A stretch of DNA of 51,078 bases, from NCBI RefSeq assembly GCF_025961575.1, contig NZ_JAOQNX010000035.1, positions 1 through 51,078 on the forward strand. The letters are read 5' to 3'. Below, one piece after another: positions 36,586-50,851 of this stretch. The notes under the pieces were generated by a model. The model did not search any database and was not told where the DNA came from. It was given only the letters and a program-made list of their open reading frames with translations. Each line of letters starts with the position of its first letter. Positions within the stretch are counted from its first letter, which is position 1. The stretch is from Rhodoblastus acidophilus. Lineage in GTDB: Bacteria > Pseudomonadota > Alphaproteobacteria > Rhizobiales > Beijerinckiaceae. A program made the translations under genes and the position numbers.

Positions 36586-36635
36586 TGGCGCGCCCGAAAG
36601 GATTCGAACCTCTGCCCCCCAGATTCGTAGTCTGG
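36586..36635 (-). other. 3' fragment of tRNA-Arg(ACG), attachment site
   Basis: Read on the minus strand this is the 3' part of a tRNA: anticodon stem-loop CCAGA-CTACGAA-TCTGG (anticodon ACG), variable loop, T-arm AGAGG-TTCGAAT-CCTTT, acceptor CGGGCGC, G, CCA. The 5' half (D-arm and 5' acceptor) is absent: the sequence beyond 36635 does not match. That is what integration into a tRNA 3' end leaves at the far junction. The truncated side faces the integrase, so the element lies to the right and the intact tRNA should lie beyond it. Confidence 0.85.
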
Positions 36636-36725
36636 AGGTCGAAAATTTCTGCAGATTTCCTCCTGACTTTTTGCATCATGAATTGCCTGAAAACGTTGGC
36701 ATTGAGCGGAGGGAAGTTCGCTCTT

Positions 36726-36789
36726 GCTTACCGGGGATTTCCTGAGTTATCCTTTTTCTGCTTACCGGGTGCTTACCGCGCTTACCGGG
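36726..36789 (+). repeat. Four GCTTACCGGG-type direct repeats upstream of integrase
   Basis: GCTTACCGGG occurs at 36726, 36760 and 36780, and GCTTACCG at 36771. They lie between the tRNA fragment and the integrase ribosome site. Positions suit arm-type sites for integrase/excisionase or an operator for the integrase gene. Confidence 0.6.
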
Positions 36790-36813
36790 CCAAAAAGTCA
36801 GGAGGCCCCAACA

Positions 36814-38115
36814 ATGCCCCAAGGCCGCATCTCAAAACGATCGGTTGACGCCCTGACTTGTCCGGCGGGGAAGGACCGTGAATTCCTATGGGACGATCAG
36901 CTTGCGGGCTTCGGCGTCGGCGCCTTCCCGACGGGCAAGAAGATTTATGTCGCGCAGTACCGCCAGCATGGCCGTTCGCGCCGCATTTCGATCGGCGAGC
37001 ATGGGCGGCTGACGCCGGATGAGGCGCGGTCGCAGGCGAAGGTGCTTCTTGGCCAGGTCGAAACCGGCTCTGATCCTGTGCAGGACCGGAGGGCGGAGCG
37101 CGCGAAGGAGACGTTTCGTGAAACCTCTGACCGCTTCATGAAGGAGCACGTCGCGACCAAGCGCAAAGGCCGCACGCAAGAGGAATATCAGCGCCTCCTC
37201 GACCTCCATTTGCTTCGAAGCATCGGCGCGCGCCGCATGGTCGACCTGACCCGCTCGGAAGTCGCGCGACTGCACAGCAAGGTGTCGGCGTCGTCGCCTT
37301 ACGCGGCCAATCGGGCGTTGGCGCTGCTCTCAGCGATTTGGAATTGGGCGGCGAAGCGAGATGAAGTCGAATTTGGCGACAATCCCGCCAAGGGCATCGA
37401 GCGCAACGCCGAGCGCAAACGCGAACGGTTCCTGAACAGCGAGGAATTGTCCCGCCTTGGCGACGCACTGCGCGAGGCCGAAGAGGTCGGCGTTCCGTGG
37501 GAAATCGACGCCAAAAAGAAAGGCGCCAAGCACACGCCGAAGGAGAACCAGCGGACGAAGATCGATCCGCACGCCGCTGGCGCGATCCGCCTCTTGATCC
37601 TGACCGGCGCGCGCCTGCGTGAAATCCTTGGCGCCAGATGGGAGCATGTCGACTTCGAGCGTGGGATTATCCATCTGCCCGACAGCAAGACCGGCGCGAA
37701 GCCGATCTATCTTTCGGCCGCCGCGCTCGACGCCCTGAACAAGCTCCCTCGGATCGAGGGCAACCCGCATGTTATCCCCGGCGAGAAAGAGGGCGCGTCC
37801 CGCGTCGACCTCAAAAAGCCTTGGGCGGCTGTCACGCGCGCTGCTGGCTTGGACGGCTTGCGCGTTCATGACTTGCGCCACAGCTTCGCGTCGTTCGGCG
37901 CCGGCGCGTCCCTTGGTCTGCCGATCATCGGCAAGTTGCTTGGGCACAGCCAGGCCGCGACGACGCACCGTTACGCGCACTTGGACGCCGATCCGATGCA
38001 CCGGGCGGTGGAGACGATCGGTTCGACCATCACCGCTGCAATGAACCGCAGCGCCGCGGCCAAAGTCGTGAAGCTGGACAAGCCAAGAGTCTCGGCGACT
38101 CTAAAAGGCAATTAG
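36814..38115 (+). CDS. P4-type tyrosine recombinase (integrase)
   Basis: A 433-residue integrase with an N-terminal DUF4102-type arm-binding domain (FLWDDQLAGFGVGAFPTGKK), a core-binding domain (about 100-200) and a catalytic domain with R267 (GARLREIL), H352-x-L-R355-H356 and Y387 (HRYAHL). All catalytic residues are present, so it should be active. ATG 36814 has a perfect GGAGG nine bases before it; the longer open frame upstream reads through the repeats. It lies next to the tRNA-Arg fragment, the expected location for this class. Confidence 0.93.
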   Translation: MPQGRISKRSVDALTCPAGKDREFLWDDQLAGFGVGAFPTGKKIYVAQYRQHGRSRRISIGEHGRLTPDEARSQAKVLLGQVETGSDPVQDRRAERAKETFRETSDRFMKEHVATKRKGRTQEEYQRLLDLHLLRSIGARRMVDLTRSEVARLHSKVSASSPYAANRALALLSAIWNWAAKRDEVEFGDNPAKGIERNAERKRERFLNSEELSRLGDALREAEEVGVPWEIDAKKKGAKHTPKENQRTKIDPHAAGAIRLLILTGARLREILGARWEHVDFERGIIHLPDSKTGAKPIYLSAAALDALNKLPRIEGNPHVIPGEKEGASRVDLKKPWAAVTRAAGLDGLRVHDLRHSFASFGAGASLGLPIIGKLLGHSQAATTHRYAHLDADPMHRAVETIGSTITAAMNRSAAAKVVKLDKPRVSATLKGN

Positions 38116-38284
38116 ACGACTGCGGTGCCGCCATTTGCGTCGCCGATGAAATCAACGTCGGATAAGCCGAAGAAAGATGAGGAAAAGGACAGCGAACAGA
38201 AGTAAAATCTGGCGTGTGGTTCGCGCGTGACCCAAGCGCAAATCACACGCGCGCTCAAATCATTGATCCAATTGCGGTACCCAA

Positions 38285-39109
38285 ATGACAGAAGCCCCTT
38301 CGTTCTCTAATTTGTGGAAGCGCCCGAAGGCTCCATTAGGGATTGTGGTGCAGTGGATCATGGAGCGAGGATCCATCCAATCCCACGCAGCGACTGCTCA
38401 GAAGAGCATCGAGGTCGGGACCTTTGAAACTGAGCAAGGAGACGATGATTACGTCGAAGCTCTGCCTGCAGAACTGATCGAAAGGATGAGGGTCGCGAGC
38501 AAAGAACTTATGACTGCCATCCAGAATGGTGCATTAGCTGTATACGGAATAAATAGAGAAGGAGGGCCCGCTCAAGCGGTTCCTCTGGAATGGTTTGACG
38601 ACTGCTTTATCAAAGTCTCGGGAATGGAGAGCGATTCCGAATTGTTCGATCGCTCCTTTAAACCCGTTGAGCCAGCACCAATTATTATGGAGTTCGGAGA
38701 TTATGAAAACTGGCCAGAGTGCAAGGGGGATACTCTGCTTAGCAACGGCCAAATTTCTTGGTCACATCTCGTGGCTCCAGTGGCAAAAATAATCGAGCTC
38801 TGGCCAACTGATTCTAATCACGAGATTGTCCCGTCGGCCGCATCGTGTTCGGCGCCATCGGCCGCGTCGGAAACCATCTACAAGACAGGTGTCGCGGGCA
38901 AGCCGTCTTCATGGTGGCTCATCGAAAAGGAAGTGCGCAGAAGGTTTGCCGGATTCCCTGCTGACGTAAAAAAAACGGACATCGCAAAACTTATGCATGC
39001 ATGGCTAAAGGAAACTCATCCTGAGGCGCCGCCGATCACAGCGAAGACAATCGAGAACAACCTCACTACCCTTCTTTTTGAACTCAGAAATGCCACACGG
39101 GCTGCCTGA
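38285..39109 (+). CDS. Hypothetical protein, island-specific
   Basis: A 274-residue protein I do not recognise. The N-terminal half is acidic and mixed alpha/beta. Residues about 165-185 form a Ser/Ala linker, and the C-terminal 75 residues (KPSSWWLIEKEVRRRF... ending in helical LMHAWLKETHPEAPPI) look like a small DNA-binding helical domain. The DNA is visibly AT-richer than the chromosome. Positions 38,116-38,284 before it show no gene. Confidence 0.6.
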   Translation: MTEAPSFSNLWKRPKAPLGIVVQWIMERGSIQSHAATAQKSIEVGTFETEQGDDDYVEALPAELIERMRVASKELMTAIQNGALAVYGINREGGPAQAVPLEWFDDCFIKVSGMESDSELFDRSFKPVEPAPIIMEFGDYENWPECKGDTLLSNGQISWSHLVAPVAKIIELWPTDSNHEIVPSAASCSAPSAASETIYKTGVAGKPSSWWLIEKEVRRRFAGFPADVKKTDIAKLMHAWLKETHPEAPPITAKTIENNLTTLLFELRNATRAA

Positions 39110-39200: not shown

Positions 39201-39482
39201 ATGGGTACACCTCAATATCTTCGTCGTCAGCAAGCGGCTGAATATCTGAAGGGGCGCTATGGCTTCGGCGCCGCCAGGACGCTCGCCAAATTGGCGGTGG
39301 TCGGTGGCGGTCCCGAAATCTTCTATGCTGGGCCTCGCACGCCTCTCTACACCGAGGAGAAACTCGACGCTTGGGCGCAGTCCAAGATCGGGCGGCCGGT
39401 GCGCAGCACCTCCGAGCGTAAGGCGAGCCAGAAGAAGCTGACGCTTGTCACCTCCGACAGCAGCCCGGAGGTCAGCGAATAA
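39201..39482 (+). CDS. AlpA/excisionase-like DNA-binding protein
   Basis: A 93-residue protein with an N-terminal helix-turn-helix of the AlpA/MerR type (YLRRQQAAEYLKGRYGFGAA...), a loop, and TPLYTEEKLDAWAQSK that marks these small regulators, followed by a polar tail. AlpA-like proteins act as excisionase or as activator of excision in P4-like elements and phage satellites. It is the first gene of a tightly overlapped run; the stop overlaps the next ATG (TAATG). Confidence 0.7.
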   Translation: MGTPQYLRRQQAAEYLKGRYGFGAARTLAKLAVVGGGPEIFYAGPRTPLYTEEKLDAWAQSKIGRPVRSTSERKASQKKLTLVTSDSSPEVSE

Positions 39483-39688
39483 TGATCCAGAGAAAGGAGA
39501 ACCCGGCCTCGCTGGCGGCGAGCCGGGTTCCGGAAAAGATCGTTTGCTTGGCGGCTGCGATCAATCCGGAAGATAGCCGCTCGACAGTAAAAATTCAACG
39601 CCTTCGGGCAATTTCCCGGCGCGCATCTTTGTCCCCCGCTGTCGCGGCCGTCGTCGCGGAACTGGCATTTGGGGAGACCCGCGCGTGA
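39482..39688 (+). CDS. Small hypothetical protein of the element
   Basis: A 68-residue, basic, Ala/Arg-rich helical product with no recognised domain. Overlaps at both ends (one base with the previous stop, GTGA with the next start) support it as a real gene of the cassette. Confidence 0.5.
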   Translation: MIQRKENPASLAASRVPEKIVCLAAAINPEDSRSTVKIQRLRAISRRASLSPAVAAVVAELAFGETRA

Positions 39689-39906
39689 AGCACGATCCTC
39701 ACACCCAAACCCGCCTTCGGTTTTTGGCAGGCCGAATCCACGCCCTCGGCCCGCGCCCGTTGTTCGAACCTTTCCGGGAAATCGAAGCCGGCGCTGACCT
39801 GATGCCGCGCCTCGAACGCTATGCGGCCCTCAGCCCCAACATCGTCGCGACCCTTGGCGCGGATCGCATGCCGCCGCGCGCTCGAATCGTAGGAGGCGCC
39901 CGATGA
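39685..39906 (+). CDS. Small hypothetical protein of the element
   Basis: A 73-residue protein with a GTG start in a GTGA overlap and an ATGA overlap to the next gene. Helical, with a FEPFREIEAGADLMPRLERY segment. No family is recognised. Confidence 0.5.
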   Translation: MKHDPHTQTRLRFLAGRIHALGPRPLFEPFREIEAGADLMPRLERYAALSPNIVATLGADRMPPRARIVGGAR

Positions 39907-40205
39907 GCCGCATCCGCCTCCCCAATCGCCGGCTCCACGAGATCCACGATCTGGAATTTCAGGGCCAGCATTTCACCCTCGGCGTCGGCCGGTTCGACGA
40001 TGGCGCGCTCGCCGAAGTGTTCATCGATCCCGCCAAATCCTCGCAGATGACCGCGATTGCGCGCGATGCGGCGGTTTGTGTGTCGATTGCTCTGCAGCAT
40101 GGCGTTCCCTCTGATGCGCTCCGCAGCGCCGTCACCAGGGAGGCCACCGGCGAGGCGGCCGGGCTCGTCGGCGCTGTTCTCGACCTGCTGGAGGCACGCC
40201 CATGA
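39903..40205 (+). CDS. TSCPD-domain-like small protein
   Basis: A 100-residue protein resembling the TSCPD domain found at the C-terminus of B12-dependent ribonucleotide reductases: the run VGRFDDGALAEVFID, then AIARDAAVCVSIALQHGVP follows the family pattern (D-G-x-L-x-E-[IV]-F-[IL]-D ... A-[IV]-x-[IV]-S-[IL]-x-L-Q-x-G-V-P). The C-terminal cysteine region of the reductase domain is missing. Standing alone next to DNA-replication genes, it may bind a reductase or nucleic acid; unknown. Confidence 0.6.
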   Translation: MSRIRLPNRRLHEIHDLEFQGQHFTLGVGRFDDGALAEVFIDPAKSSQMTAIARDAAVCVSIALQHGVPSDALRSAVTREATGEAAGLVGAVLDLLEARP

Positions 40206-40684
40206 AAACGATCATCGGCATTGACCCCGGTGTGAATGGCGCCGTCTCCGTCCTGGACGAGGCTGGCAGTCTCCTGAACCTCCATGACCTGCCCGTGACC
40301 TCGGACGGCTTCAAGGGCCGCAGCACCATCAACTGCCCGCTGCTCGCCGCTTTGATCCGGAAGACCGGAGCTGATCGCGCGTTCTGCGAACTCATCGGCC
40401 CGCGCCCCACAGATGGCGTGGCCGGCGCCTTCGGTTTCGGCCGGAGCCGCGGCGCCATTGAGGGCGTGCTCGCTGCCTGCGGCGTCTCCGTCGTCATGAT
40501 CGCGCCGCCCGTTTGGAAGCGCCATGCAGGCGTCCCGGCTGGCAAGGAACACAAGGACGTTGCTCGCGCCCGCGCCATCGCCCGTTGGCCCGCCCAGGCC
40601 GAACTTTTTGCCCGCAAATCTGACATCGATAGAGCCGAGGCTTGCTTGATCGCCTTGGCCGGCATGGCGAAAGAGGTGCGCTGA
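40202..40684 (+). CDS. RuvC-like Holliday junction resolvase
   Basis: A 160-residue RNase H-fold nuclease: GIDPGVNGAVSV at the N-terminus carries the first catalytic Asp (D8), a central acidic residue is in AFCELIG, and the C-terminal DIDRAEACLIAL supplies the last acidic pair. Phages and satellites use such enzymes to resolve branched replication intermediates. It sits directly before primase and helicase and overlaps both neighbours. Confidence 0.85.
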   Translation: MKTIIGIDPGVNGAVSVLDEAGSLLNLHDLPVTSDGFKGRSTINCPLLAALIRKTGADRAFCELIGPRPTDGVAGAFGFGRSRGAIEGVLAACGVSVVMIAPPVWKRHAGVPAGKEHKDVARARAIARWPAQAELFARKSDIDRAEACLIALAGMAKEVR

Positions 40685-41562
40685 TGTTCGATCTCCGCAC
40701 CATCGCACGCGCCCTTGGCGGCGAGGTGGTCAACGGCCAGGTGCTCGCGCCCGGCCCAGGCCACAGCAAGCGAGACCGCTCCCTTGCGGTCCGACCGTCG
40801 GCGACCGATCCAGACGGCTTCCTCGTCCACTCGCATTGCGGCGACGACTGGCGCACCTGCCGCGACCATGTGCGGCACCACCTCGGACTTTCGCGAGATG
40901 ACTGGAAATACAGGGAACAGAGACCCACGGCAGGGCGCGTTTCTGACCTGAGAGCACCACCCACTGAAGACGACGCCAAGCGCACGCGGGACGCCCTGGC
41001 GATCTGGCGCGCTTCCACCGATCCGCGCGGAACGCTGGCGCAGACCTATCTTGAGTCGCGCGGCCTGGACTTGTCTGACGACCTCGCTGGGTCCGTCCTG
41101 CGGTGGAATGCGCACATTGGCGCCTTGGTCGCGCTCTTCCGCAACCTGCACACCGGTGAGCCGCAGGCGATCACGCGCATTTTCCTCGACCGCGAAGGCA
41201 AGAAGACCGGGCGCATGTTCAAGGGGCCGGTGGGCGGCGCGGCCGTGATGCTGGACGATCACGCCAGCGTCGCGCACGGCTTTTTCTGCGGCGAGGGCGT
41301 CGAGACCTGCATGGCCGGCCGTCAGATGGGCTTCAAGCCGGCGTGGGCGCTGGGATCAGCTGGCGCGATTGAAAGCCTGCCGCTCCTGGCCGGCGTCGAC
41401 GCCGTCACCATCTTCGCGGAGACCGACGATAGCGGCGCCAATGCGCGCGCGATCGCCGCGACCGGCGCGAGGTGGCGGGCCGCTGACCGAGAGGTCTTCG
41501 TGGTGACGCCGGAAATCGGTGGCGACATGAACGACGCGCTGCTGATGCGGAGGGCTGGATGA
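40684..41562 (+). CDS. Toprim-domain primase
   Basis: A 292-residue primase-like protein. The N-terminal part holds a zinc-finger-like region (GPGHSKRDRSL... HSHCGDDW... C) as in phage P4/DnaG-type primases. The C-terminal Toprim domain has FFCGEGVETCMAG (glutamate motif) and VTIFAETDDSGANAR (the DxD-like motif as E-T-D-D). It would make primers for replication of the element. Its ATG shares a base with the resolvase stop. Confidence 0.85.
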   Translation: MFDLRTIARALGGEVVNGQVLAPGPGHSKRDRSLAVRPSATDPDGFLVHSHCGDDWRTCRDHVRHHLGLSRDDWKYREQRPTAGRVSDLRAPPTEDDAKRTRDALAIWRASTDPRGTLAQTYLESRGLDLSDDLAGSVLRWNAHIGALVALFRNLHTGEPQAITRIFLDREGKKTGRMFKGPVGGAAVMLDDHASVAHGFFCGEGVETCMAGRQMGFKPAWALGSAGAIESLPLLAGVDAVTIFAETDDSGANARAIAATGARWRAADREVFVVTPEIGGDMNDALLMRRAG

Positions 41563-42725
41563 CGACCTATCCGACGCCCTACGCCAAGGACAACGACCGC
41601 GTGACGGTTACAAAATGGGAGCTGTCGCCGAATGACGGCTATGCTCCGCCAGGCGAGTCGGTTGAGCGGCCACTTCCGCCGCTCCAAATCATCAATCCCG
41701 CCGACTACTTCGGCCACATCATACCGTCGCGCCGATGGATCGTGCGCGATTGGATTCCCTGCGGCGTCGTCACCGGCCTTTATGGCGATGGCGGCCTCGG
41801 TAAATCCCTGCTGGCCCAACAGTTGCAGTCAGCGTGCGCCTGCGGGGGCGAATGGGTTGGCCAGGTCGCCGAGTATTGCAGGTCCATCGGCTTCTATTGC
41901 GAGGACGACACGGACGAGCTGCTTCGCCGCCAGGAGAACATCACGGCGGCGATGAACCTTGAGGCCGCCGACCTCGCAAACGTCCAATTCGTCTCCCGCG
42001 TCCATCAGGACAACATCCTGATGACGTTCAGCAAGAGCGGCAAAGGCGAGCTGACGCCGCTGCACAAGCAGATGGTGGAACAGTCGAAGGACTTCGGCGC
42101 CCGCCTCGCCGTGTTCGACACCGCGGCGGATTTCTTCGCCGGTAACGAAAACGACCGGGGGCAGGTGCGCCAGTTTATCGCCGTCGCGCTCGGCAGCATC
42201 GCCGAGGCAATCGACGGCGCCGTGCTGTTGTGCGCGCATCCCTCCCGATCCGGCATATCGTCCGGCACTGGCGACGGCGGCTCAACCGGCTGGTCAAACT
42301 CCTTCCGGTCGCGGCTCTATCTGTCCATGCCAGAGTGCGAAGGCGTTCCGCCCGACGATGAGCGCGTGCTGGCGCGCAAGAAGGCGAATTACGCGGCGCG
42401 CAACGATCAAATCCCGCTCGTCTGGAGCAACGGCGCATTCCGCGTGAACCGGCCGAACGACGCCATTGGCAGCAGCTTTCGCGCGTCCGCGAGCGAGGTC
42501 TTTCTCAGCCTGCTCGATGCGCTGACAAAGCAAAATCGCCTCGTCTCGGACAACGCCCATGCGAGCAATTACGCGCCGAAGGAGTTCGCTCTCCAGCCTG
42601 ATCGCCAGGGCTACAAGAGGCAGGATTTCAAGCTGGCCATGGAGCGGCTGTTTGCCGTGGGGCAAATCAAAGTCGTCGAAGATGGTCCCCCGTCCAGACG
42701 TCGGAGGTACATCGCCAATGCCTGA
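41559..42725 (+). CDS. RecA-like replicative ATPase/helicase (RepA/AAA_25 type)
   Basis: A 388-residue ATPase with Walker A GDGGLGKS at 76-83, a Walker B-like AVFDTAADFF, and LLCAHPSRSG as the sensor strand. This is the RSF1010 RepA-like hexameric helicase fold that pairs with Toprim primases in small replicons. A C-terminal winged-helix-like region (QDFKLAMERLFAVGQIKVV) follows. The iteron cluster begins 10 bases after its stop codon. Confidence 0.85.
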   Translation: MTTYPTPYAKDNDRVTVTKWELSPNDGYAPPGESVERPLPPLQIINPADYFGHIIPSRRWIVRDWIPCGVVTGLYGDGGLGKSLLAQQLQSACACGGEWVGQVAEYCRSIGFYCEDDTDELLRRQENITAAMNLEAADLANVQFVSRVHQDNILMTFSKSGKGELTPLHKQMVEQSKDFGARLAVFDTAADFFAGNENDRGQVRQFIAVALGSIAEAIDGAVLLCAHPSRSGISSGTGDGGSTGWSNSFRSRLYLSMPECEGVPPDDERVLARKKANYAARNDQIPLVWSNGAFRVNRPNDAIGSSFRASASEVFLSLLDALTKQNRLVSDNAHASNYAPKEFALQPDRQGYKRQDFKLAMERLFAVGQIKVVEDGPPSRRRRYIANA

Positions 42726-42734: not shown

Positions 42735-42841
42735 CTTCACGGTTGGCTTCACGGTTCTTCACGGTTCCAACCATGAAGTGGCAAAAACACCATATTCTTC
42801 TAGGCATTGCGGCCGGTCTTCACGGTTGGCGCTTCACGGTC
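42735..42841 (+). repeat. CTTCACGGTT iteron cluster, candidate replication origin
   Basis: CTTCACGGTT occurs perfectly at 42735, 42747, 42757 and 42818, with CTTCACGGTC at 42832 and an inverted near-copy AACCATGAAG at 42769-42778. Degenerate copies continue (CTTCTTGGTT 42841, TTCATGGTT 42878, CTTCCCGGTA 42888). Directly after the primase and helicase genes, this has the form of an initiator-binding iteron array. It occupies most of the 300-base gap 42,726-43,025. Confidence 0.65.
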
Positions 42842-43025: not shown

Positions 43026-44087
43026 ATGAAAAGGCTCGACCCCAAACTCGTGAAAGTCATCGCCCTGTGGCGCGGGACGGAGCACGAGGGAGAACGCCAA
43101 TCTGCCCGGGCGAGGATTGAGACCCTCGCGGCTCAAGTCGGCATGACGGTCGAAGAGGCTATCAGCCAGGACGAGGCCGAACGGAATGCAGGCACGGCCG
43201 ATGGCGTGAACGTTCTCCATGGCTTCGACGATTTCATGGAAGCGCGGGAGCCGGGATACAAAGCGCGCCGCGCCAGGGAACGCTCGGAAAAGATCGCCGC
43301 CCGGGTTGCACGCCGGAAGGTGCTGCTCGAGCGCTTCGACTCGGAGGAGGCGATTACGGCGCCATGCGAGCGCGAGCGTCTCATCCTCGATGCTGTGAAG
43401 CCGTGGCGAACCGTTCGCAAGCCGCCGTATGAAAGATGGACGGATGCGCTGGATGGATGGAGCGACGCTTGGTCCAATCCGCCGGCGCACATCGATGCGG
43501 CCATTCGCTGTGCCTACCCGCTGCCGATGACTTTCGCTGAGGCGCTCGCCGAGCATGATTACTGGGAGGCGCGGGGACTGGAACTGGCTGATGCCTGGAA
43601 CACGGATCGCTCAGGCGAGGAACTGGACCTCGCAGCCTGCTGGCGGGCGCGGACCGTTGAACGGCTCATCGAATTCGAACTGGTCGCCAAGGACGCGGCC
43701 GACGTGCTCGCTCGCTTCCGGTTCTATCGGGCGCGTGAATGTCACGATCGCAAGGCCGAAACCGCCATCTTCAACGATCTCGAGCGGATCGTGATGGAAG
43801 CCGCCGCCAATGTGTCCAGCGAGGACACATGCGCGCAAACTTCTGTCTCTGCCGCCGGCAGCATCCCCGCAACTGTCCAGCGTGGACAGATAGAGGCGGC
43901 AATCGCTGCTGATCCTTCCCGCTCTGATCGGTCCGTTGCCCGGGAACTGGGATGCTCGCCGACCACGGTGGGCAAGGTCAGGGCCTCAATGGGCTTGGGC
44001 GCCGTGGCGCGATCTGTCCAGCGCGGCGGACAGATGTTTGCGGCGCGCTACGGCCAGTCGACGCCCAAGGAGGCGCTCAATGGCTGA
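43026..44087 (+). CDS. Phage-type protein with DUF2786-like N-terminus and C-terminal HTH
   Basis: A 353-residue protein. Residues about 8-45 (KVIALWRGTEHEGERQSARA...) resemble the DUF2786 helical module. The middle is rich in charged helices (MEAREPGYKARRARERSEKI). Near 300-330, AIAADPSRSDRSVARELGCS looks like a helix-turn-helix. A DNA-binding role in replication or packaging is plausible but not established. The last eight bases overlap the next gene. Confidence 0.65.
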   Translation: MKRLDPKLVKVIALWRGTEHEGERQSARARIETLAAQVGMTVEEAISQDEAERNAGTADGVNVLHGFDDFMEAREPGYKARRARERSEKIAARVARRKVLLERFDSEEAITAPCERERLILDAVKPWRTVRKPPYERWTDALDGWSDAWSNPPAHIDAAIRCAYPLPMTFAEALAEHDYWEARGLELADAWNTDRSGEELDLAACWRARTVERLIEFELVAKDAADVLARFRFYRARECHDRKAETAIFNDLERIVMEAAANVSSEDTCAQTSVSAAGSIPATVQRGQIEAAIAADPSRSDRSVARELGCSPTTVGKVRASMGLGAVARSVQRGGQMFAARYGQSTPKEALNG

Positions 44088-44523
44088 AAATGCAGCGGGA
44101 AAACAGCGCGGCGCGCCGTTCAAGAAGGGCCAGTCCGGCAACCCCAAGGGCAAGCCGAAGGGGGCGCGCCACAAGGTCACCATCTTGGCGGAAAAGCTGA
44201 TGGAGGATGAGGCCGAGGCCGTCATTCGCGCCGTCGTCGACAAGGCCAAAGAGGGCGACATGACCGCGGCGCGCATCGTGGTCGACCGCATTGCGCCGGT
44301 TCGGAAAGGCCGGCCGATCCAGTTGAAGCTGCCCAAGGTTGAAACCGCCGACGACGTCGCTGCGGCTATGGCGGCGATCATCAGCGCCATGGCGGACGGC
44401 GCCATCACGCCGGAAGAGGCGACTGCGGCGGCCAGTGTGCTCGAGGCCCGCCGGCGGGCCATTGAAACGCAGGAATTCGAGCGGCGCTTGGCCGCGCTTG
44501 AGGAGCAAGGGAAGGGGCAATGA
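44080..44523 (+). CDS. DUF5681 protein
   Basis: A 147-residue protein with the DUF5681 signature near the N-terminus (FKKGQSGNPKGKPKGAR), followed by helices typical of the family. These proteins lie beside terminase genes in many prophages and may be packaging or DNA-binding accessories. AAGGAGG seven bases before the ATG at 44080 fixes the start. ATGA overlap with the next gene. Confidence 0.75.
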   Translation: MAENAAGKQRGAPFKKGQSGNPKGKPKGARHKVTILAEKLMEDEAEAVIRAVVDKAKEGDMTAARIVVDRIAPVRKGRPIQLKLPKVETADDVAAAMAAIISAMADGAITPEEATAAASVLEARRRAIETQEFERRLAALEEQGKGQ

Positions 44524-44960
44524 CCATGAAGCAGATTGTTGCGCGCCTGAAGCGCATCGAATACGCGCAGCACGCCGCGGGGCTCGACCCTGAAACCGCG
44601 GTGCTGTTCGAGCCGATCTTGGCGATCGTCGCCTTTCACTTCCTCGCCGACTATGGCGCGCCCTGCGACACGGCCGCCACCGGCGCTCCCGGCCAACAAA
44701 AAGGCCAGCGAGATTTTAGCGCTCTCTCCGACACTGAGCTGACCCGCCAGATGCTGCATGGGTTTGCGCAGGACCTCGAGCAGCTGTCTGTTGACGCAGG
44801 CGGCGAGCCGCGCAACGGGCGCGAGCTGAATGCATGGCTCAAATTGCCGGCGACCAGGGAAGCCCTGGGCATCGTTTACGACGCCATCCCCGACGCGTTC
44901 AAAGAGCAGGAGCGCTTCCCGCGTCAATTGCGCGGCGCTGCCATCAGGAGCGTGCAATGA
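44520..44960 (+). CDS. Hypothetical phage-type protein
   Basis: A 146-residue mostly helical protein beginning MTMKQIVARLKRIEYAQHAA. No domain is recognised. Overlap at both ends with neighbours supports it as part of the same transcription unit. Confidence 0.55.
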   Translation: MTMKQIVARLKRIEYAQHAAGLDPETAVLFEPILAIVAFHFLADYGAPCDTAATGAPGQQKGQRDFSALSDTELTRQMLHGFAQDLEQLSVDAGGEPRNGRELNAWLKLPATREALGIVYDAIPDAFKEQERFPRQLRGAAIRSVQ

Positions 44961-45289
44961 CGCTATTCGAAACCCGTGACGACGCCGGGCCGCACGTTCT
45001 CCGGCCATACGATCGGCGCGAGGCGCTGTCGCTGCGCCGGGCTGCGGAGATCTCCGGAAAGTCCGAATCCACGGTGCGCAGCTGGTGCGCCGTTCACGAC
45101 ATCGGCCGGCGTGTCGCCAATGGCCCCTGGCAGGTTTCGGCGCCGGCGCTGCGCATGCTGCTGGACGGCGACGGAAAAGCCCTCGCCGCCTACCTAGCCG
45201 GGGACCGCGCCTCGCCGAGCGTCGCGGCCTATTTCGAGCGATGCGGCCTGGCCGACATGCTGACCACCACCATGCAGAGGATCGCTTGA
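44957..45289 (+). CDS. Small helix-turn-helix protein
   Basis: A 110-residue protein; ALSLRRAAEISGKSESTVRS is a clear helix-turn-helix of the MerR/excisionase type, followed by a small wing (NGPWQVSAPALRMLL). It may regulate the late part of the cassette. The ATG overlaps the previous stop. Confidence 0.65.
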   Translation: MTLFETRDDAGPHVLRPYDRREALSLRRAAEISGKSESTVRSWCAVHDIGRRVANGPWQVSAPALRMLLDGDGKALAAYLAGDRASPSVAAYFERCGLADMLTTTMQRIA

Positions 45290-45290
45290 A

Positions 45291-45530
45291 ATGCTGCCGC
45301 CTCCCGACCCGCGCACGCTCGATGGTCAAGTTCGCATTTGTTACGGCCAATCGGCGCTGGCCGTCTCGAGTTTGGGGAACGCCCTCGGCCTGCTTGTTCA
45401 GGTTCAGGACGCAAGCGACGCGGCGCAGCTCATCCGGTTGCTGGACGCGACTCAAGCCCACCTGACCAACGCGCGCAAGGCGGCGGTGAACTTCGCCGGC
45501 ATGGTGTTGCCGTGCGCAGGGTCCATTTAA
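45291..45530 (+). CDS. Small hypothetical protein
   Basis: A 79-residue helical protein one base after the preceding stop. It has no recognised domain; AALAVSS-like and IRLLDATQAHLTNARKAAV stretches suggest a coiled or helical bundle. Confidence 0.5.
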   Translation: MLPPPDPRTLDGQVRICYGQSALAVSSLGNALGLLVQVQDASDAAQLIRLLDATQAHLTNARKAAVNFAGMVLPCAGSI

Positions 45531-45634: not shown

Positions 45635-45862
45635 ATGCTTGCTGCCGCATTTCGAAATGCCGCCCCGCGCTTCCCGGAAAAAGTCAGCGTGTACCTGCCG
45701 AAGGGCGCGCGCGCCGCAATCGAGCGCGCTGCCGAGCAAACCGGCGTGACGGCGCCCGAGCTTTTGCGCCTCGCCATCGTGGAGAAAATCCGTCCTGCTG
45801 AGGGCGGCGAAGACTGCGGCCGGAATGATCCAGCCCCGCGTCCGTCGCGCCCCTCTCTTTGA
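45635..45862 (+). CDS. Ribbon-helix-helix-like small protein
   Basis: A 75-residue protein: KVSVYLPKGARAAIERAAEQ followed by VTAPELLRLAIVEKI is the pattern of a CopG/Arc-type ribbon-helix-helix domain. The first ATG at 45635 is chosen; the frame is open further upstream without a clear start. Likely a small transcription regulator. Confidence 0.55.
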   Translation: MLAAAFRNAAPRFPEKVSVYLPKGARAAIERAAEQTGVTAPELLRLAIVEKIRPAEGGEDCGRNDPAPRPSRPSL

Positions 45863-45882
45863 TTTCCGCAGGAGTATTTCAA

Positions 45883-46377
45883 ATGCCGAGAGGCGGAAAA
45901 CGAGCAGGATCAGGTCGCCCCAGGGGAGTTGGGCGTCCGACCGATTTCAAACCGGAATTTGTCGCGCAAGCGAAGAAACTCTGCGCGCTCGGGGCGACGA
46001 CGTTCGACCTCGCAACCTTCTTCAATGTCTCTTCGTCGACGATCAAGAGATGGGCGGCCTTACACTCCGAATTTTCGGCCGCACTCGTCGTGGGAAAATC
46101 TTCGGCCGACGACCGTGTCGAGCGCTCGCTGTTCGAGCGCGCTGTTGGGTACTCGTTCGAGAGCGAGAAGGTTTTTCAACATGCTGGGCAAGTCATTCGG
46201 GCCCCAACGGTCGAGCATGTTCCGCCTGATCCGGGGGCAGCGATGAACTGGCTCAAGAACCGCCGCGGCGATGTTTGGCGCGATAAGCACGAGCACCAAT
46301 TAGGCGGCGCAATCGAAATCGTGAGCAAGGACCGACGCGACGCAGCGGTGCGGGCGGCCTTGCGCGCCGACACTTGA
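45883..46377 (+). CDS. Terminase small subunit-like protein (TerS)
   Basis: A 164-residue protein with a basic N-terminus, a helix-turn-helix (TTFDLATFFNVSSSTIKRWA) and the domain RVERSLFERAVGYSFESEKV... ending PDPGAAMNWLKNRRGDVWRDK, the pattern of small terminase subunits in many Rhizobiales phages. TerS recognises the packaging site. AGGAG eight bases before the ATG at 45883 fixes the start. No large subunit follows. Confidence 0.8.
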   Translation: MPRGGKRAGSGRPRGVGRPTDFKPEFVAQAKKLCALGATTFDLATFFNVSSSTIKRWAALHSEFSAALVVGKSSADDRVERSLFERAVGYSFESEKVFQHAGQVIRAPTVEHVPPDPGAAMNWLKNRRGDVWRDKHEHQLGGAIEIVSKDRRDAAVRAALRADT

Positions 46378-46388
46378 AGGGGCGAGCT

Positions 46389-47399
46389 ATGGGGTTCTTC
46401 GACAGTCTTTTCGGCGGGGCGGACAAGGCCGCTCAGGACCAGATCAACGCGATCCAGCAAGGCTTGGGCGCGGCCAAGGGCAATATCGCGGCTGGCGACT
46501 CCGCGCTGAACACCAATTACGCCGCCGCGCTGCAGCCCTACCTGCAGAACTATTCAACCGCGCAGCAAGGCGTTTCGAAACTGGGCGACCTGCTTGGGCT
46601 CAACGGCGCCGCCGGCAGCCAGAACGCCCAGGCCGCGCTTACGGCCATGCCGGGCTATTCGTTCACCGTTGGCCAGGGCAACAACGCGATCAACGCGGCG
46701 GCGGCGGCCAACGGGACGCTGGGCAGCGGCAACCAGGCGCTGGCGTTGCAGAAGTTTGGGCAGCAGGCGGCAAATACGAATTATTCGAACTATGTCAGCC
46801 AGTTGCAGCCGTATTTGACCGCCAGCGCGACCGCCGCGTCTGGCATCGGGGACACCTATAAGGGCCTCGGCAACATGCTCAACGCCAACCAGAACACGTT
46901 GGCGAACCTGAACGTCGGCGCCTACACCGGGATTGGGAACGCACAGGCCAGCGCTGATCTTGCCAATCAAGGCATGGGGCTCGGCGCGCTGTTCGGAGCT
47001 TTGGGCTTCGGCAGTTCCTCGGGCTGGGGCGGGAGCATGGGCAAGAGCCTCGTGGGCGGGCTTGGCACGGGCGCTTTCAAGCTTATGACGGGTGGCGGCC
47101 TCAGCCCGATCTTCTCTGATGAGCGTCTGAAGGAGAACGTTTCCCCGGTCGGCGAGCTTTACGACGGGACGCAGGTCTATCGCTACAACTACAAGGGCGA
47201 CGGGACGCCCCATATCGGCGTCATGGCGCAGGAGATTGAGAAGAAATATCCCGATGCGGTCACCGAATTCGGCGGCCTGAAGGCTGTGGACTATGGCAAG
47301 GCCACGGATATGGCTTCCGAGCTCAGAAAATTCGTCGACGCGGGAGCCCTACCACGGGGCGACGGAGGGTTCGCGGCTGCGCTCGACCGCTTCCGATAA
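46389..47399 (+). CDS. Virion protein with C-terminal S74 intramolecular chaperone domain
   Basis: A 336-residue protein. The N-terminal two-thirds is Ala/Gly/Asn/Gln-rich with helix-forming repeats (AALQPYLQNYSTAQQGV, and the similar SQLQPYLTASATAASGI), as in phage ejection or injection proteins. Near 250-320, SDERLKENVSPVGEL and HIGVMAQEIEKKYPDAV are the peptidase S74 chaperone motifs that self-cleave after trimer folding. It is the only structural-type protein in the element. Confidence 0.78.
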   Translation: MGFFDSLFGGADKAAQDQINAIQQGLGAAKGNIAAGDSALNTNYAAALQPYLQNYSTAQQGVSKLGDLLGLNGAAGSQNAQAALTAMPGYSFTVGQGNNAINAAAAANGTLGSGNQALALQKFGQQAANTNYSNYVSQLQPYLTASATAASGIGDTYKGLGNMLNANQNTLANLNVGAYTGIGNAQASADLANQGMGLGALFGALGFGSSSGWGGSMGKSLVGGLGTGAFKLMTGGGLSPIFSDERLKENVSPVGELYDGTQVYRYNYKGDGTPHIGVMAQEIEKKYPDAVTEFGGLKAVDYGKATDMASELRKFVDAGALPRGDGGFAAALDRFR

Positions 47400-47543
47400 C
47401 TGCAGGTGGCGCGAGATGAAATCTAGTCTACACGCCCACCTTGCCCGAGATGAGCCGCGCAGGGCTGCCGATGATGTCGCCAGGGATGAAGCCCGCGAGC
47501 TTTTCGGCGAACCCGGGCGGGTTTGGCTTGAGCATGGTGGGTG

Positions 47544-48080
47544 ATGGCGGACGATCGTAAGTCGGTTGACTGGGAAGCGATTGAGCGCGAGTTTCGCGCC
47601 GGTCAGCTTTCCATTCGCGCCATCGCTTCGAAGTTCGGCGTTACCGACACAGCTATTCGCAAGCGCGCCAAGGCGCATGACTGGACGCGCGCTCTTGCGG
47701 ACAAGGTTCGCGAGACGGTTCGCGAAAAGCTGGTTCGCAGCGACGGTTCGCAGGAAGGTTCGCAAGAGCAACGCGCGACCGACAAGGAAATCATCGAAGC
47801 GGCGGCTTTGCGCGGCCTTGAGGTCATCACCTCTCATCGCCGCGATTTAACGCAAATCCACGCGCTCAAGCGGATCCTTTTATGGAAGGGGATGCGATCG
47901 ATCGGGCCCATGCGACACTATTCGATAGCCCGCTCAGCGCCGAGGAAGCCGCTTGCCACGATAAGGCTGTACGCCGCGCGTCCTTCTCCGCCGCAAGCAT
48001 TTTCGCAGTGGCAATCCCGCCGGCGTGACGAGCTCCATCTGTCCGTGAGGGCCGCAGGCGGGAATCCTTTTCAGCCCTGA
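47544..48080 (+). CDS. Second TerS-like protein, C-terminus disrupted
   Basis: Residues 1-112 match a small-terminase pattern: WEAIEREFRAGQLSIRAIAS, then FGVTDTAIRKRAKAHDW (helix-turn-helix), then IIEAAALRGLEVITSHRRDL. After about residue 112 (near 47,880) the frame turns into Arg/Ser/Pro-rich sequence, while another frame from an ATG at about 47,884 gives a more protein-like run (SPLSAEEAACHDKAVRRASF). A frameshift or fusion point is likely, so the gene is probably broken. ATG 47544 is used. Confidence 0.5.
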   Translation: MADDRKSVDWEAIEREFRAGQLSIRAIASKFGVTDTAIRKRAKAHDWTRALADKVRETVREKLVRSDGSQEGSQEQRATDKEIIEAAALRGLEVITSHRRDLTQIHALKRILLWKGMRSIGPMRHYSIARSAPRKPLATIRLYAARPSPPQAFSQWQSRRRDELHLSVRAAGGNPFQP

Positions 48081-48121
48081 AGAACCATGCGATGGTGTGC
48101 GCGACATTCCTGTGGGGCAAG

Positions 48122-48613
48122 ATGTTTAGCCTGGGACGTTTCCTTCCGGCGATTGCCGTTCTCTTTGGCTCCGCTATGGCTGCAGACAATGAAGTTTTGT
48201 TCGCCAAGAAGGCGTTTCTGGATGTCGGCGATGCGGTCAGCGTAATTGGTACCATTTCTGGCGACGGCGTCGGATATCCGAACAACTCGGCTCGGATCTC
48301 ATGCTATCGAGCGCGGAATGAGTGCGTCGTCACAACCGTTGAGCAAATCGGCCTCAATCATGTGGGCAGCATCAGCGAACCAGCATTCATCCCGGTTGCG
48401 CGATGGACAGCGACCGAAATCGTTGCCGAGTACGACGGCCTTGGCGTGGGTTGCTCCAGCCTCTCGATTTTCATCGATCGTGGGACGCACAGGGTTCGTT
48501 GGGTCCAAGCGCCGAAAAATTCGGCATATGCGCTTTGCGAGCACTCTGAGCACACCACGTTGAATTGGTACATCGATGACGCGCCCGGGCAAAAGCAATT
48601 CGACGCCAAATGA
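48122..48613 (+). CDS. Secreted cargo protein, function unknown
   Basis: A 163-residue protein with a signal peptide (cleavage near AMA-ADNE, residue 20) and four cysteines in the mature part (two in CYRARNEC, one in GVGC, one in ALCEHS). It is beta-rich and periplasmic or secreted. It has no phage role that I can see, so I regard it as cargo. The ATG at 48122 with GGGG upstream gives a clean signal peptide. Confidence 0.6.
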   Translation: MFSLGRFLPAIAVLFGSAMAADNEVLFAKKAFLDVGDAVSVIGTISGDGVGYPNNSARISCYRARNECVVTTVEQIGLNHVGSISEPAFIPVARWTATEIVAEYDGLGVGCSSLSIFIDRGTHRVRWVQAPKNSAYALCEHSEHTTLNWYIDDAPGQKQFDAK

Positions 48614-48700
48614 TGTGTCAATCGCTCCTTCAGCGGCGGTGGCTCCCACCAGAAAGGGCGCATCCTATTGCGGTCTGTCGCGCACTACCGATCAGTCGCC

Positions 48701-49216
48701 TTAATTCCCTTTGCCCGCAAAGGGGACTAGCTGCCTGATTTGTTGGCATTCATCATCGTCTGAAAACCTCATCCTCGTCCTGACGACATCTAGAATATCA
48801 TTGCGGACCGGTTTACCTTCCCTGTTCAGTTGAATAAATGTTTTTGCATCTTTATCTTCGCATTTAACATTAAGCCAAGACTTTAAATTTTCATAATCAA
48901 ATCCATGTTTTTCAGATTCTGCAAATAATATATATTGAGATCCGATTTTATTCGGTGTTACATCTAAAAGTGTTCCTGATTTGTCCCGTAGAACAGAATG
49001 ATGTTGGCCCAAAATTCCTTTTTCGATCGACCAAAGGGACCAACCGTGCACGATATCCCCGCGACCTTCTTGTGAGGCTGCCCACACATTGTACCAACAA
49101 CGCCCAATCAAAAATCTCTCATCTCCCAAATTCACGGGAACCTTCACTGCAGTAAGATTTCCTAGTAGCTTTAAGAGCTGCAGCAATTTTTTATCATTTA
49201 TATCAGGGACTCTCAT
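48701..49216 (-). CDS. AT-rich cargo protein with conserved Cys/His/Asp motifs
   Basis: A 171-residue protein on the opposite strand to the rest of the element, in clearly AT-rich DNA with its own codon habits (many AAA, ATT, TTA). The pattern GRCWYNVWA (C40), VHGWSLW (H57), QHHSVLRDKSG (H72/H73) and LLDVTP (D85) resembles an uncharacterised family with a conserved Cys, His and Asp, a possible thiol-enzyme triad. It looks like a recently acquired moron gene. Defence or toxin function is possible but not shown. The flanks (48,614-48,700 and 49,217-49,403) hold no other gene. Confidence 0.6.
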   Translation of the reverse strand: MRVPDINDKKLLQLLKLLGNLTAVKVPVNLGDERFLIGRCWYNVWAASQEGRGDIVHGWSLWSIEKGILGQHHSVLRDKSGTLLDVTPNKIGSQYILFAESEKHGFDYENLKSWLNVKCEDKDAKTFIQLNREGKPVRNDILDVVRTRMRFSDDDECQQIRQLVPFAGKGN

Positions 49217-49403
49217 AAATATAACACCTTTATCTGCTGTCTTTTGAAAGAGATAAAATTTAGATGTGAATAATTATATAATGAGCGCGTAATTCGCTCC
49301 AGCCATCTCGCTGCGTGATCATCTCCCGCTCACGCCAAGTTGAGACAGGCTTCGCGCCGTTGCGGAGTATCTTTGCCTGGTCGGCAGACGAGAGGGAACC
49401 GCC

Positions 49404-49721
49404 ATGGACCGGCCACGCGTCTATACCCCGGAGCAGGTCGCTGAAATCCTGCAGTGCAGCCCCGCGCACGTCCGCGCCATGTGCAATGCCGGGCGACTTC
49501 CGTTTTTCCGGCTTGGGGGTAAGCTGATCCGCATCCGCGCTGCCGATCTCGAGGCCTTGATATGTCCATCGAATACAAGCTCCAGCGCCTCAGGGGAGGC
49601 TGGGCCATCGCCGGCTATGAAAACGGCAAGAGAGTCAGTCGCAGACAGCTTAGATCGAGCGATGCGGCAGATGCGGCAGTCGAATTCGCGGAAGCGGTCG
49701 CCATCGCCCGCAAGCCCGTAG
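49404..49721 (+). CDS. Excisionase-family DNA-binding protein
   Basis: A 105-residue protein whose first 52 residues are a classic excisionase-type winged helix (YTPEQVAEILQCSPAHVRAM, then GRLPFFRLGGKLIRIRAADLEALI). The remaining 53 residues are Ser/Arg-rich and overlap the integrase gene by 160 bases in another frame, so the tail may be non-essential. AGAGGG precedes the ATG. Confidence 0.75.
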   Translation: MDRPRVYTPEQVAEILQCSPAHVRAMCNAGRLPFFRLGGKLIRIRAADLEALICPSNTSSSASGEAGPSPAMKTARESVADSLDRAMRQMRQSNSRKRSPSPASP

Positions 49722-50593
49722 ACCCCGACGTCTCTGAAATCTGGACTGCCTATCGTCAGGATCGCGCAGGCCGGCGCATCTCCGAAAACATGGAGTGGAG
49801 CGGCAAGGCCATCCTGCTGTTTTTCGGCGCCAAAAAGCCGGCCTCGATCACCACGGAGGACTGCCGCGAATACGCAAAAGCGCGCTGCGCCGCGGGCCGC
49901 CAGAACGGCACGATCTGCACGGAGCGTGGACACCTGCGCTGCGCGCTGAAATTGGCGAAGAACTCCAAGATGATCGCAGAGCTGCCCTATATCGAGCGGC
50001 CGGAACTGCCACCGCCGAAGGAACGCCACCTGACGCGCAGGGAAGCCGAGCGCGTCATCCTAGGAGCCAGCGCGCCGCATGTGCGCCTGTTCATCATCCT
50101 GGCGCTCTCGACGGCGGCCCGCATGTCGGCATTGCTGGAGCTGACTTGGGATCGCGTGGACTTCGCGCGCGGGCTGATCGTCCTGGGGAGCCTCGACCGC
50201 ACGGCGAGACAAAAGGGCAGGGCGACCGTCCCGATGACGCAGACGGCGCGCGCCGCGCTCTCGTCCGCCAAGGAAGGCAAGATGTCCGATTATGTGATCG
50301 AGCATGGCGGGGAGAAGATCGCGACCATCAAGAAGGGCGTGAAGGAAGCGGCGCGCCGGGCGAAGGTCGCGGGCGTCACGCCGCATGTGTTCCGCCACAC
50401 CGCCGCTGTATGGATGGCTGAGGACGGCGTCGACATGGAGGAGATCGCCTCATACCTGGGGCATTCTGACTCGACGATCACGAAGCGCGTCTATGCGAAA
50501 TTTTCGCCAGAGCATCTGAAGAAGGCGGCCGGGTCGCTGGAAATGAAGATTCCTCCATTCTCGACGCGTTATGCGCCAGCCAGTCCGGCGTGA
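49562..50593 (+). CDS. Tyrosine recombinase (second integrase)
   Basis: A 343-residue phage integrase of a different subfamily from the first: no DUF4102 domain, but a core-binding domain (about 60-150) and a catalytic domain with R187 (TAARMSALLEL), H275-x-x-R278-H279 and Y311 (RVYAKF). All catalytic residues are present. It starts inside the excisionase gene, which implies tight coupling. A strong terminator and a tRNA-3'-end-like sequence follow, as expected next to an attachment site. Confidence 0.92.
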   Translation: MSIEYKLQRLRGGWAIAGYENGKRVSRRQLRSSDAADAAVEFAEAVAIARKPVDPDVSEIWTAYRQDRAGRRISENMEWSGKAILLFFGAKKPASITTEDCREYAKARCAAGRQNGTICTERGHLRCALKLAKNSKMIAELPYIERPELPPPKERHLTRREAERVILGASAPHVRLFIILALSTAARMSALLELTWDRVDFARGLIVLGSLDRTARQKGRATVPMTQTARAALSSAKEGKMSDYVIEHGGEKIATIKKGVKEAARRAKVAGVTPHVFRHTAAVWMAEDGVDMEEIASYLGHSDSTITKRVYAKFSPEHLKKAAGSLEMKIPPFSTRYAPASPA

Positions 50594-50703
50594 CGCACGG
50601 TTGGCCAACCCCTTCAACACCGCCACAAGTTTGACACAGCCTTCGGTCATCAAGTTCCCAATTCCAAGGCGAGCTCGGATGTACAGACGCCAGGGAGCAG
50701 AGG

Positions 50704-50736
50704 CCCCGCACGGTGAAGACCGATCGCGGGGTTTTT
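50704..50736 (+). terminator. Rho-independent terminator after the second integrase
   Basis: CCCCGC (50704-50709) pairs with GCGGGG (50726-50731), with an inner CGGT-GAAG-ACCG tetraloop hairpin, followed by TTTTT (50732-50736). Convincing intrinsic terminator. Confidence 0.85.
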
Positions 50737-50827
50737 CGTGTCCAAGCCCGCGCAGAGCGCCGTGACGGACGGAGAACAAGCGGATCAAGGCGAAACCAGC
50801 GGCGCGCCGATCGCACTCCTGTTGCGC

Positions 50828-50851
50828 GTTCGAGTCCTACCCCTCTCGCCA
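50828..50851 (+). other. tRNA 3'-end-like sequence, candidate attachment site
   Basis: Reads as a T-loop (TTCGAGT), T-stem half (CCTAC), seven acceptor bases (CCCTCTC), discriminator G and CCA. No matching 5' acceptor or T-stem half precedes it, so it is a fragment or a coincidence. A similar stretch (CGAGTCCTACC then TCTCCCGTCA) recurs at 50943-50963. The rest of 50,737-51,078 shows no gene. Confidence 0.45.

Follow-up and report, generated by a model that had tools for sequence, protein, structure and literature searches.

The known systems that resemble the element described here include the phage-inducible chromosomal islands (PICIs). Those of the classical Gram-negative type carry a tyrosine integrase at a tRNA or similar site, AlpA or a similar regulator or excisionase, a primase-replicase with an origin and a small terminase subunit (TerS), are not known to have structural genes and are induced by a helper phage, in whose particles they are packaged; the cf-PICIs have their own capsid and packaging genes. 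The PICMI model of Vibrio has an integrase, an AlpA/Xis-like gene and a primase as its core, uses a DUF3987/DUF5906 primase and is located at fis (PMC10803314). We analysed a stretch of 51078 bases (the window), which is the entire contig C35 of the 80 contigs of a Rhodoblastus acidophilus genome (G000; other G numbers denote family or genus genomes or comparisons, L numbers fetched loci and C numbers contigs). In an initial annotation, positions 36586-50851 had been described as one phage-satellite-like island with the plan of a PICI. From the genes retained and their order in phages we consider, with moderate confidence, that the part from 36569 to about 47345 is the head-less derivative of a temperate tailed phage and not a PICI by descent. 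The parent phage was probably short-tailed.

The evidence comes mainly from the two genes at the right end of this part, encoding TerS and a virion protein with an S74 chaperone domain, both of which had been annotated and turned out to be real (Table 1). In a phage late operon of G159 (contig C644) a TerS with 57% identity (882-1292) and an S74 protein with 54% identity (16266-17174) are encoded on the same strand and in the same order as in the window, but 15 kb apart. The DNA between them holds motor, portal and connector genes, namely those for the large terminase subunit TerL (phrog_38, 1.7e-112), the portal (phrog_156, 5.5e-95) and head closure (phrog_578, 2.7e-44). The first 20 kb of this contig yielded none of the early genes of the window. 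The S74 protein of G159 is recognised by phrog_6121 and by phrog_598 (DNA ejection); that of the window is collinear with it from the start codon on, and the 54% identity was measured against L123:16263-17177. In the window the two genes abut, with 11 bases from the end of TerS to the S74 start codon. A block of about 15 kb of a phage late operon is therefore missing here. The ORFs of 36586-51078 taken as genes (21 scanned with Pfam, 20 of these also with PHROGs) gave no match to TerL, portal or capsid, and the genes retained fit one phage gene order with the block absent. The deleted prophage, which the initial annotation had named as its alternative, thus describes the origin best, and descent from a temperate phage that lost its motor and head block is well supported. 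Since TerS and S74 are the two ends of one late operon, we regard TerS as an inherited gene and not as a diagnostic hijacking gene.

Phage-type sequence was found on both sides of the putative breakpoint. The window TerS, which has relatives with 67% identity in L047 and L048, ends with RADT like the TerS of L055, where TerL starts at an overlapping TTGA. In the window, the TTGA of this TerS/TerL overlap is followed by AGGGGCGAGCT and then by the S74 start codon ATG at 46389. On the other side, the viral contig L258 carries AGGGGCGAGCG ahead of the same S74 gene and has the leader AGGGGCGAGC in common with the window. Because the L258 leader also contains TTGA, the deletion may conceivably have run through this 4-base microhomology. 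A head-closure gene lies upstream of S74 in all eight viral contigs carrying a relative of the S74 N-terminal part; TerS was not found on these contig pieces of 7-13 kb, and a comparison of the S74 N-terminal part with the genome contigs gave no relative. The relatives of the S74 protein stop soon after ...ASEL. The final 20 or so residues of the window protein match none of them, and a second breakpoint is therefore probably located near 47345, in the last codons of S74. No convincing source was found for this C-terminal tail or for that of a second TerS further to the right.

In its anatomy the island is satellite-like, and this part of the earlier description stands. An integrase, a small DNA-binding regulator or excisionase, a primase and TerS, with no head genes found, are common to the island and the PICIs (PMC10803314), and the core of integrase, AlpA/Xis-like gene and primase is shared with the Vibrio PICMI. 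The gene order, a size of about 11-14 kb and an integrase beside a tRNA-Arg core would agree with a classical Gram-negative-type PICI in an alphaproteobacterium. The island differs from a PICI by an RdfS-type factor, RuvC, a separate RepA helicase next to its Toprim primase, an S74 ejection gene and a TerS of late-operon type, and from the PICMI by a Toprim/DUF7146 primase and a tRNA-Arg core instead of a DUF3987/DUF5906 primase and the fis site. The absence of structural genes claimed for the island holds for TerL, portal and capsid but not for the S74/DNA-ejection gene (46389-47399). Of capsid and packaging genes as in cf-PICIs, the 21 ORFs contain TerS only, and a capsid-redirecting gene was not recognised in the Pfam and PHROG scans of the island ORFs. 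Because a virion gene is present and TerS is the leftover of a phage late operon and not a satellite gene, the second point being a criterion of our own, we would not file the island as a PICI. Membership is not supported, and we consider such an origin very improbable.

The AlpA identity given to the regulator (39201-39482) is not borne out by Pfam, in which the protein has no match at 0.1. A profile of the window protein and five relatives (profile A4) matches RdfS (PDB 8dgl, E 1e-7), which comes from a Mesorhizobium symbiosis island, and we read the protein as being of excisionase type. A single-sequence fold of the regulator was poor (pLDDT 64) and was not used.

The annotated integrase, resolvase, primase and helicase genes were all found again by family searches (Table 1). 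From the excisionase onward through the helicase, gene ends overlap or abut. Integrase 1 has relatives with 73% identity in G005 and 69% in G004:C11, and the excisionase gene an 86% identical copy in L042. L042 also carries relatives of the DUF5681 (81%), 146-aa (55%) and helix-turn-helix (HTH, 82%) genes in conserved order. The 274-aa protein was matched in 14 of 397 family genomes; it gave no Pfam or PHROG match at 0.1 and no relatives among viral contigs or plasmids. The primase was matched in 90 of the 397 genomes (E<=0.001), again without relatives among viral contigs.

The iteron array already described behind the helicase consists of five exact copies of TTCACGGT within 105 bases. Only a single further copy (minus strand) occurs in the window, for which about 1.6 copies are expected by uniform chance on both strands. 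This array is a probable replication origin. Replication of RSF1010 type relies on a RepA helicase, a primase and iterons. The island shares with it the iterons and a helicase resembling PDB 1g8y, the RepA of RSF1010, but has a phage-type Toprim primase, and no RepC was recognised. The RepA-like helicase, the iterons behind it, the occurrence of primase relatives on plasmids with repB/repC or ParA and the resemblance of the excisionase to RdfS would be expected of an integrative plasmid-like element that acquired single phage genes by recombination. We regard such an origin as highly improbable, since resolvase and primase match phage families, TerS and S74 come from one late operon, and a helicase relative (35% identity) lies ahead of TerS and TerL in the viral contig L129, which reads as an ordinary phage order.

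Table 1. Features of the analysed part of the window (strand., none given)
Feature	Position	Strand	Evidence
Attachment core: 3' half of tRNA-Arg(ACG) and 17 bases of 3' flank	36569..36635	-	67 bp, 98.5% identity to G000:C7:164043-164109
Tyrosine integrase 1, start codon uncertain	36724..38115	+	PF00589 1.2e-17, PF13356 4.3e-13, phrog_1 3.9e-59
Four GCTTACCG repeats, probable integrase arm sites	36726..36787	+	exact copies at 36726, 36760, 36771, 36780; tandem array
274-aa protein of unknown function, common to G009 element	38285..39109	+	42% identical relative in L042
RdfS-type excisionase / recombination directionality factor	39201..39482	+	six-member profile matches PDB 8dgl RdfS, E 1e-7
Three small genes (68, 73, 100 aa), starts and stops overlapping	39482..40205	+	relatives: 68-aa in L042 (43%), 100-aa in L044 (63%)
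RuvC-like Holliday junction resolvase	40202..40684	+	phrog_1770 1.4e-27; 68% identity in L042
Toprim primase (Toprim/DUF7146)	40642..41562	+	PF23639 3.5e-11, PF13362 4.6e-9, phrog_510 4.4e-17
RepA-type replicative helicase	41559..42725	+	AAA_25 PF13481 9.4e-26; PDB 1g8y RepA 9.8e-5
Iterons, probable replication origin	42736..42840	+	five exact TTCACGGT starting at 42736, 42748, 42758, 42819, 42833; tandem array
353-aa protein, weak HTH signal close to C-terminus	43026..44087	+	relative (28%) on plasmid NZ_AP024151, two genes behind helicase
DUF5681 gene, 146-aa gene, HTH gene, 79-aa gene	43936..45530	+	PF18932 9.1e-15 (DUF5681)
Small ribbon-helix-helix (RHH)-like gene just before late genes, boundaries approximate	45672..45862	+	fold assigned by eye
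Terminase small subunit 1 (TerS), complete; true start may be 45883	45859..46377	+	phrog_309 5.6e-43
Putative deletion junction; block between TerS and S74 in phages (about 15 kb in G159) missing	46375..46388	+	TTGA, then S74 leader AGGGGCGAGC
Virion/DNA-ejection protein with S74 chaperone domain	46389..47399 (ORF 46374-47399)	+	PF13884 4.9e-11; phrog_6121 9.6e-14; phrog_598 'DNA ejection' 2.1e-10
Second TerS, C-terminal part probably broken	47541..48080	+	phrog_1206 3.6e-34, residues 6-113 of 179 on profile 4-111 of 207
Two orphan genes in lower-GC stretch (173 aa +, 171 aa -)	48092..49216	.	GC 0.51
Second excisionase	49404..49721	+	HTH_17 PF12728 1.8e-14; phrog_66 3.5e-8
Second tyrosine integrase	49562..50593	+	PF00589 1.2e-21
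Decayed 3' fragment of tRNA, anticodon CAT	50910..50953	+	86% to G000:C33:3805-3848, within tRNA-Met(cat) gene
Putative end of IS-like repeat, contig break	50984..51078	.	95-base repeat, nine other G000 contigs, eight at contig end

A close counterpart of the early module is an element of the same genus (G009:C61), which has the integrase, RdfS-like, 274-aa, 68-aa, RuvC, DUF5681, 146-aa, HTH and RHH-like genes in the same order. Its DNA is 75% identical to the window over 266 aligned bases through the RHH-like gene, up to about 45790. It differs from the island by an extra RdfS-like copy between the integrase and the 274-aa gene, by an unmatched primase and by a helicase that is only 23% identical. 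TerS and S74 were not found there, and a 1033-aa protein takes the place of TerS. This protein has no Pfam or PHROG match; we call it ejection-type because L125 and L127 carry partial relatives of it in their late regions. The G009 element looks like another derivative in which a different late gene has been retained. G005 carries integrase, primase, helicase and a resolvase. An integrated element in G004 (contig C36; L044, 5654-15482) combines a different integrase with an RdfS-like excisionase, primase and helicase. It also encodes a major capsid protein (PF25209) and has an HTH gene whose DUF1441 match is sub-threshold; TerL was not noticed there by eye.

Of 20 fetched primase loci, nine encode a G004-subfamily helicase and four a helicase that matches the one of the window; some loci match both. 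A scan of larger ORFs from these and related loci (8-20 kb each) covered 74 of 167 plus three controls and listed 25 of 63 families, with results not resolved per member. Among the families listed, TerL (phrog_2) occurs in two members, taken as L195:10600-12090 and L205:14218-15708 (56% identical), a head maturation protease family in one, and a baseplate hub family in one. The protease member is most likely L197:12207-13397, whose product is similar to prohead proteases of phages. L201 and L210 encode large proteins of mutual kinship, one of which is also related to genes of L125-L127. Between 5866 and 13397, L197 (G013:C25:15000-34900) carries the primase together with a gene related to the HTH/DUF1441 gene of G004 and with the prohead-protease-like protein of 396 aa, i.e. 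a head gene that was kept. L240 (G339:C1:812000-831900) has the same primase, TerL and, by reading, a tape-measure-like protein between 2818 and 9167; neither portal nor capsid was noticed by eye. The recurrence of a related primase on elements on which TerL and portal were not found, plasmids among them, speaks against a view of pure decay; other elements with this primase keep TerL, head protease or capsid.

Several findings weigh against an origin by deletion. Of the 49 IMG/VR loci that carry a relative of TerS or S74 (L047-L095), none has the excisionase, primase or helicase at 1e-4, and no complete phage with this exact pairing of early and late genes was therefore found; a RuvC relative is present in six of these loci, an integrase relative in three, and L055 has a weak primase match (2.7e-4). 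In L129 only the related helicase is combined with TerS and TerL. The scan of ten G159:C644 proteins recognised no capsid family; one of the ten matched only a family of unknown function and five none at 0.001. Open frames are preserved in the early genes, in TerS and in almost the whole of S74, although a decaying prophage often shows stops. Furthermore, both joins lie almost exactly at gene ends, which is odd for a random deletion, the contig ends before the far end of the island is fixed, and the rarity of TerL among the scanned ORFs of related-primase elements could mean a standing head-less lifestyle.

We nevertheless favour the head-less phage derivative and a deletion rather than a capture of phage genes. 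The ancestor would have been a temperate phage with a tRNA-Arg integrase and an RdfS-type excisionase. Its replication would have relied on a Toprim primase, on a helicase of RepA type and on an iteron origin following the helicase gene. Its early genes would have been followed by a late operon in the order TerS - TerL - portal - head genes - head closure - S74 ejection protein - further genes. Within this operon, a deletion of about 15 kb would have fused the end of TerS to the S74 leader, whereby motor, portal and connectors were lost and presumably the capsid as well, and a second breakpoint in the last S74 codons would have removed the remaining late genes. The right third (47541-50960) would be the remnant of another integrative element, with an IS-like repeat closing the contig. 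Such an island should still be able to excise and replicate, but could hardly make particles alone.

We also searched the rest of the genome for a helper or for the lost block. A search of 11 genus genomes, run without a control genome, found TerL of the G159 type in none of them. Profiles for portal and TerL, built from six-row and four-row alignments, were run against ten genomes including G159 as positive control. The portal profile gave no candidate in G000, and the TerL profile a single weak partial match (C61:39-446, E 3.6e-5) on a 4.3-kb contig. Endolysin- and tail-like ORFs were read by eye on this small contig. G159 and G357 match both profiles strongly, and G071 matches the portal profile. 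As far as the assembly is complete, this argues against the lost block lying just past the contig end, and the co-resident helper with matching TerL that the initial annotation proposed to look for did not turn up.

These results bear on the question whether the island is now possibly working as a satellite. It could be a satellite of a new, phage-derived kind, which keeps integration, excision, replication, TerS and the ejection protein, whereas a helper phage with the same TerS type would supply head, motor and tail. We judge this rather unlikely. No matching helper was detected in G000, the native end of S74 is lost, and some primase elements keep TerL (two members), a head protease (L197) or a capsid gene (G004). 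The similar plan of the G009 element with another late gene would favour it, as would a group of plasmids with a related primase.

The primase matches 28 plasmid records, and in five of these the match covers 93-98% of its length with 41-49% identity (the Methylobacterium/Microvirga plasmids NZ_CP089300, NZ_AP024151, NZ_CP107536, NZ_CP141051 and NZ_CP102848). We read the gene tables of three of these five, the PLSDB tables being incomplete. On these circular plasmids (NZ_CP089300, NZ_AP024151 and NZ_CP141051) an AAA/RepA-type helicase adjoins the primase, relatives of the DUF5681, HTH or 353-aa-type genes occur in some, and ejection-type or tape-measure genes are present; TerL was not found in the large ORFs tested. 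Unlike the island they replicate freely and have repB/repC or ParA as well as an integrase, their helicases belong to another subfamily, their ejection protein belongs to another PHROG (phrog_4287), and queries with two types of TerS found neither on them. NZ_CP141051 encodes the DNA-ejection protein (phrog_4287, 6.4e-14) followed by a 396-aa and then an 1160-aa protein, the latter related to the 1033-aa protein of G009. Terminase, portal and capsid are not annotated on this plasmid, and TerL was unmatched in eight larger ORFs scanned, among the families listed. The 396-, 1160- and 841-aa plasmid proteins have no PHROG match, and the 1160-aa protein none among phage records; their place and kinship suggest an ejection role. 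NZ_CP089300 and NZ_AP024151 carry tape-measure proteins. L220 (NZ_CP089300.1, 2213-4834) and L221 (NZ_AP024151.1, 2117-4822) stem from 31-35 kb plasmids of Methylobacterium that carry a primase of the same family. L222 (NZ_CP141051.1, 12056-24433), L217/L218 (G357:C65) and L211/L216 (G303:C4) represent related Microvirga-type plasmids or plasmid-like contigs of about 40 kb, on which TerL, portal and capsid were not found. G372:C4, G303:C4 and G357:C65 had been considered as complete 40-kb phages; this was rejected because two of the three carry genes of plasmid type and TerL was not matched.

Pairwise dN/dS values (Nei-Gojobori, own script) were calculated for NZ_CP141051 against G357:C65 and G303:C4, given here in this order. 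They amount to 0.16 and 0.23 for the 328-aa protein, 0.18 and 0.17 for the 396-aa protein, 0.28 and 0.22 (553 residues only) for the 1160-aa protein and 0.19 and 0.23 for the 841-aa protein. The primase shows 0.12 (dS near-saturated) and 0.08, and repB and repC, both found in G357 only, 0.10 and 0.11, respectively. No helicase relative was found in G357:C65. With values of 0.16-0.28 the ejection-type genes are under purifying selection in replicons without a detected head or motor gene. No other observation speaks as strongly for a satellite-like lifestyle, yet it concerns plasmids that have the primase in common with the island and not the helicase, TerS or S74. G357 holds, besides its plasmid-like contig, a separate prophage with TerL and portal of the type lost from the window (L255, G357:C23:28000-47900), which is a candidate helper.

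The left end of the island is marked by the attachment core, a 67-bp copy of the 3' half and flank of a tRNA-Arg gene that is present as a whole on contig C7 of G000. The GCTTACCG repeats between the core and the integrase domain are probable arm sites of the integrase. Since two further GCTTACCG copies adjoin the intact tRNA-Arg, C7 may carry the other end of the island. It ends 14.2 kb past this tRNA. The outer-membrane gene of the left flank of the window (TamA-like by eye) and tRNA-Arg are located 1.9 Mb apart on one G003 contig; C35 and C7 therefore cannot be joined safely, C7 was rejected as simple right half of the island, and the attachment core may not be in its native place. Ten C7 ORFs scanned with Pfam gave no phage structural protein, but a RecD2-like helicase, another integrase, a cadherin/RTX protein and seven ORFs without match. 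The stretch beside the intact tRNA-Arg (L011, 5753-19933; G000:C7:164152-178332) shows arm-like repeats followed by the RecD2-like helicase, the integrase and the cadherin/RTX protein up to the contig end, and could be the far end of the island or a different insertion. The roughly 570 bases between the outer-membrane gene and the core (35997-36568) are unmatched in the closest relative G001, and nearly nothing fetched matches them.

The stretch is composite, since two integration modules are present. We read 47541-50960 as what is left of a second integrative element, to which the second TerS, the second excisionase and the second integrase would belong. This second TerS, already noted as broken, probably is so in its C-terminal part: its phrog_1206 match is limited to residues 6-113. 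The best phage record, an Erwinia phage TerS, matches residues 8-146 at 42%, and the rest of the protein is not recognised. The two orphans have no Pfam match at 0.1; the best PHROG value is E 0.056 for the 171-aa gene, and there is none for the 173-aa gene. A repeat of about 120 bases with a terminator-like stem (50618-50736) occurs at many sites across the genus, some of which adjoin tRNA genes, e.g. tRNA-Asn on C19 and tRNA-Arg on C7. The final 95 bases of the window recur with 99-100% identity in nine other G000 contigs, in eight of the nine at the contig end. The right edge is therefore an assembly break at a repeat, presumably the end of an insertion sequence (IS).

If the island is only a deleted prophage, a single 15-kb deletion between TerS and an ejection gene mimics a PICI, and such a product is a warning for marker-based satellite finders. 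A wider, tentative view, which we think unlikely, is that phage-derived satellites form a broad class in the Hyphomicrobiales, either integrated or as plasmids, with a Toprim primase adjoining a RepA-type helicase. They would have discarded head and packaging genes to different extents and maintained their own DNA-delivery proteins, of ejection or tape-measure type. Such elements would ride in helper heads and fit them with their own injection machinery, and the island would be a member with TerS and S74. In the literature searched, with most subscription papers and all bioRxiv preprints outside its scope, we found no description of head-less, ejection-bearing elements in Hyphomicrobiales or of satellites with their own DNA-injection proteins. 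If the wider pattern holds, there would be satellites that bring their own DNA-injection proteins, and this would bear on how phages become satellites and on what decides the recipient cell of a borrowed particle.

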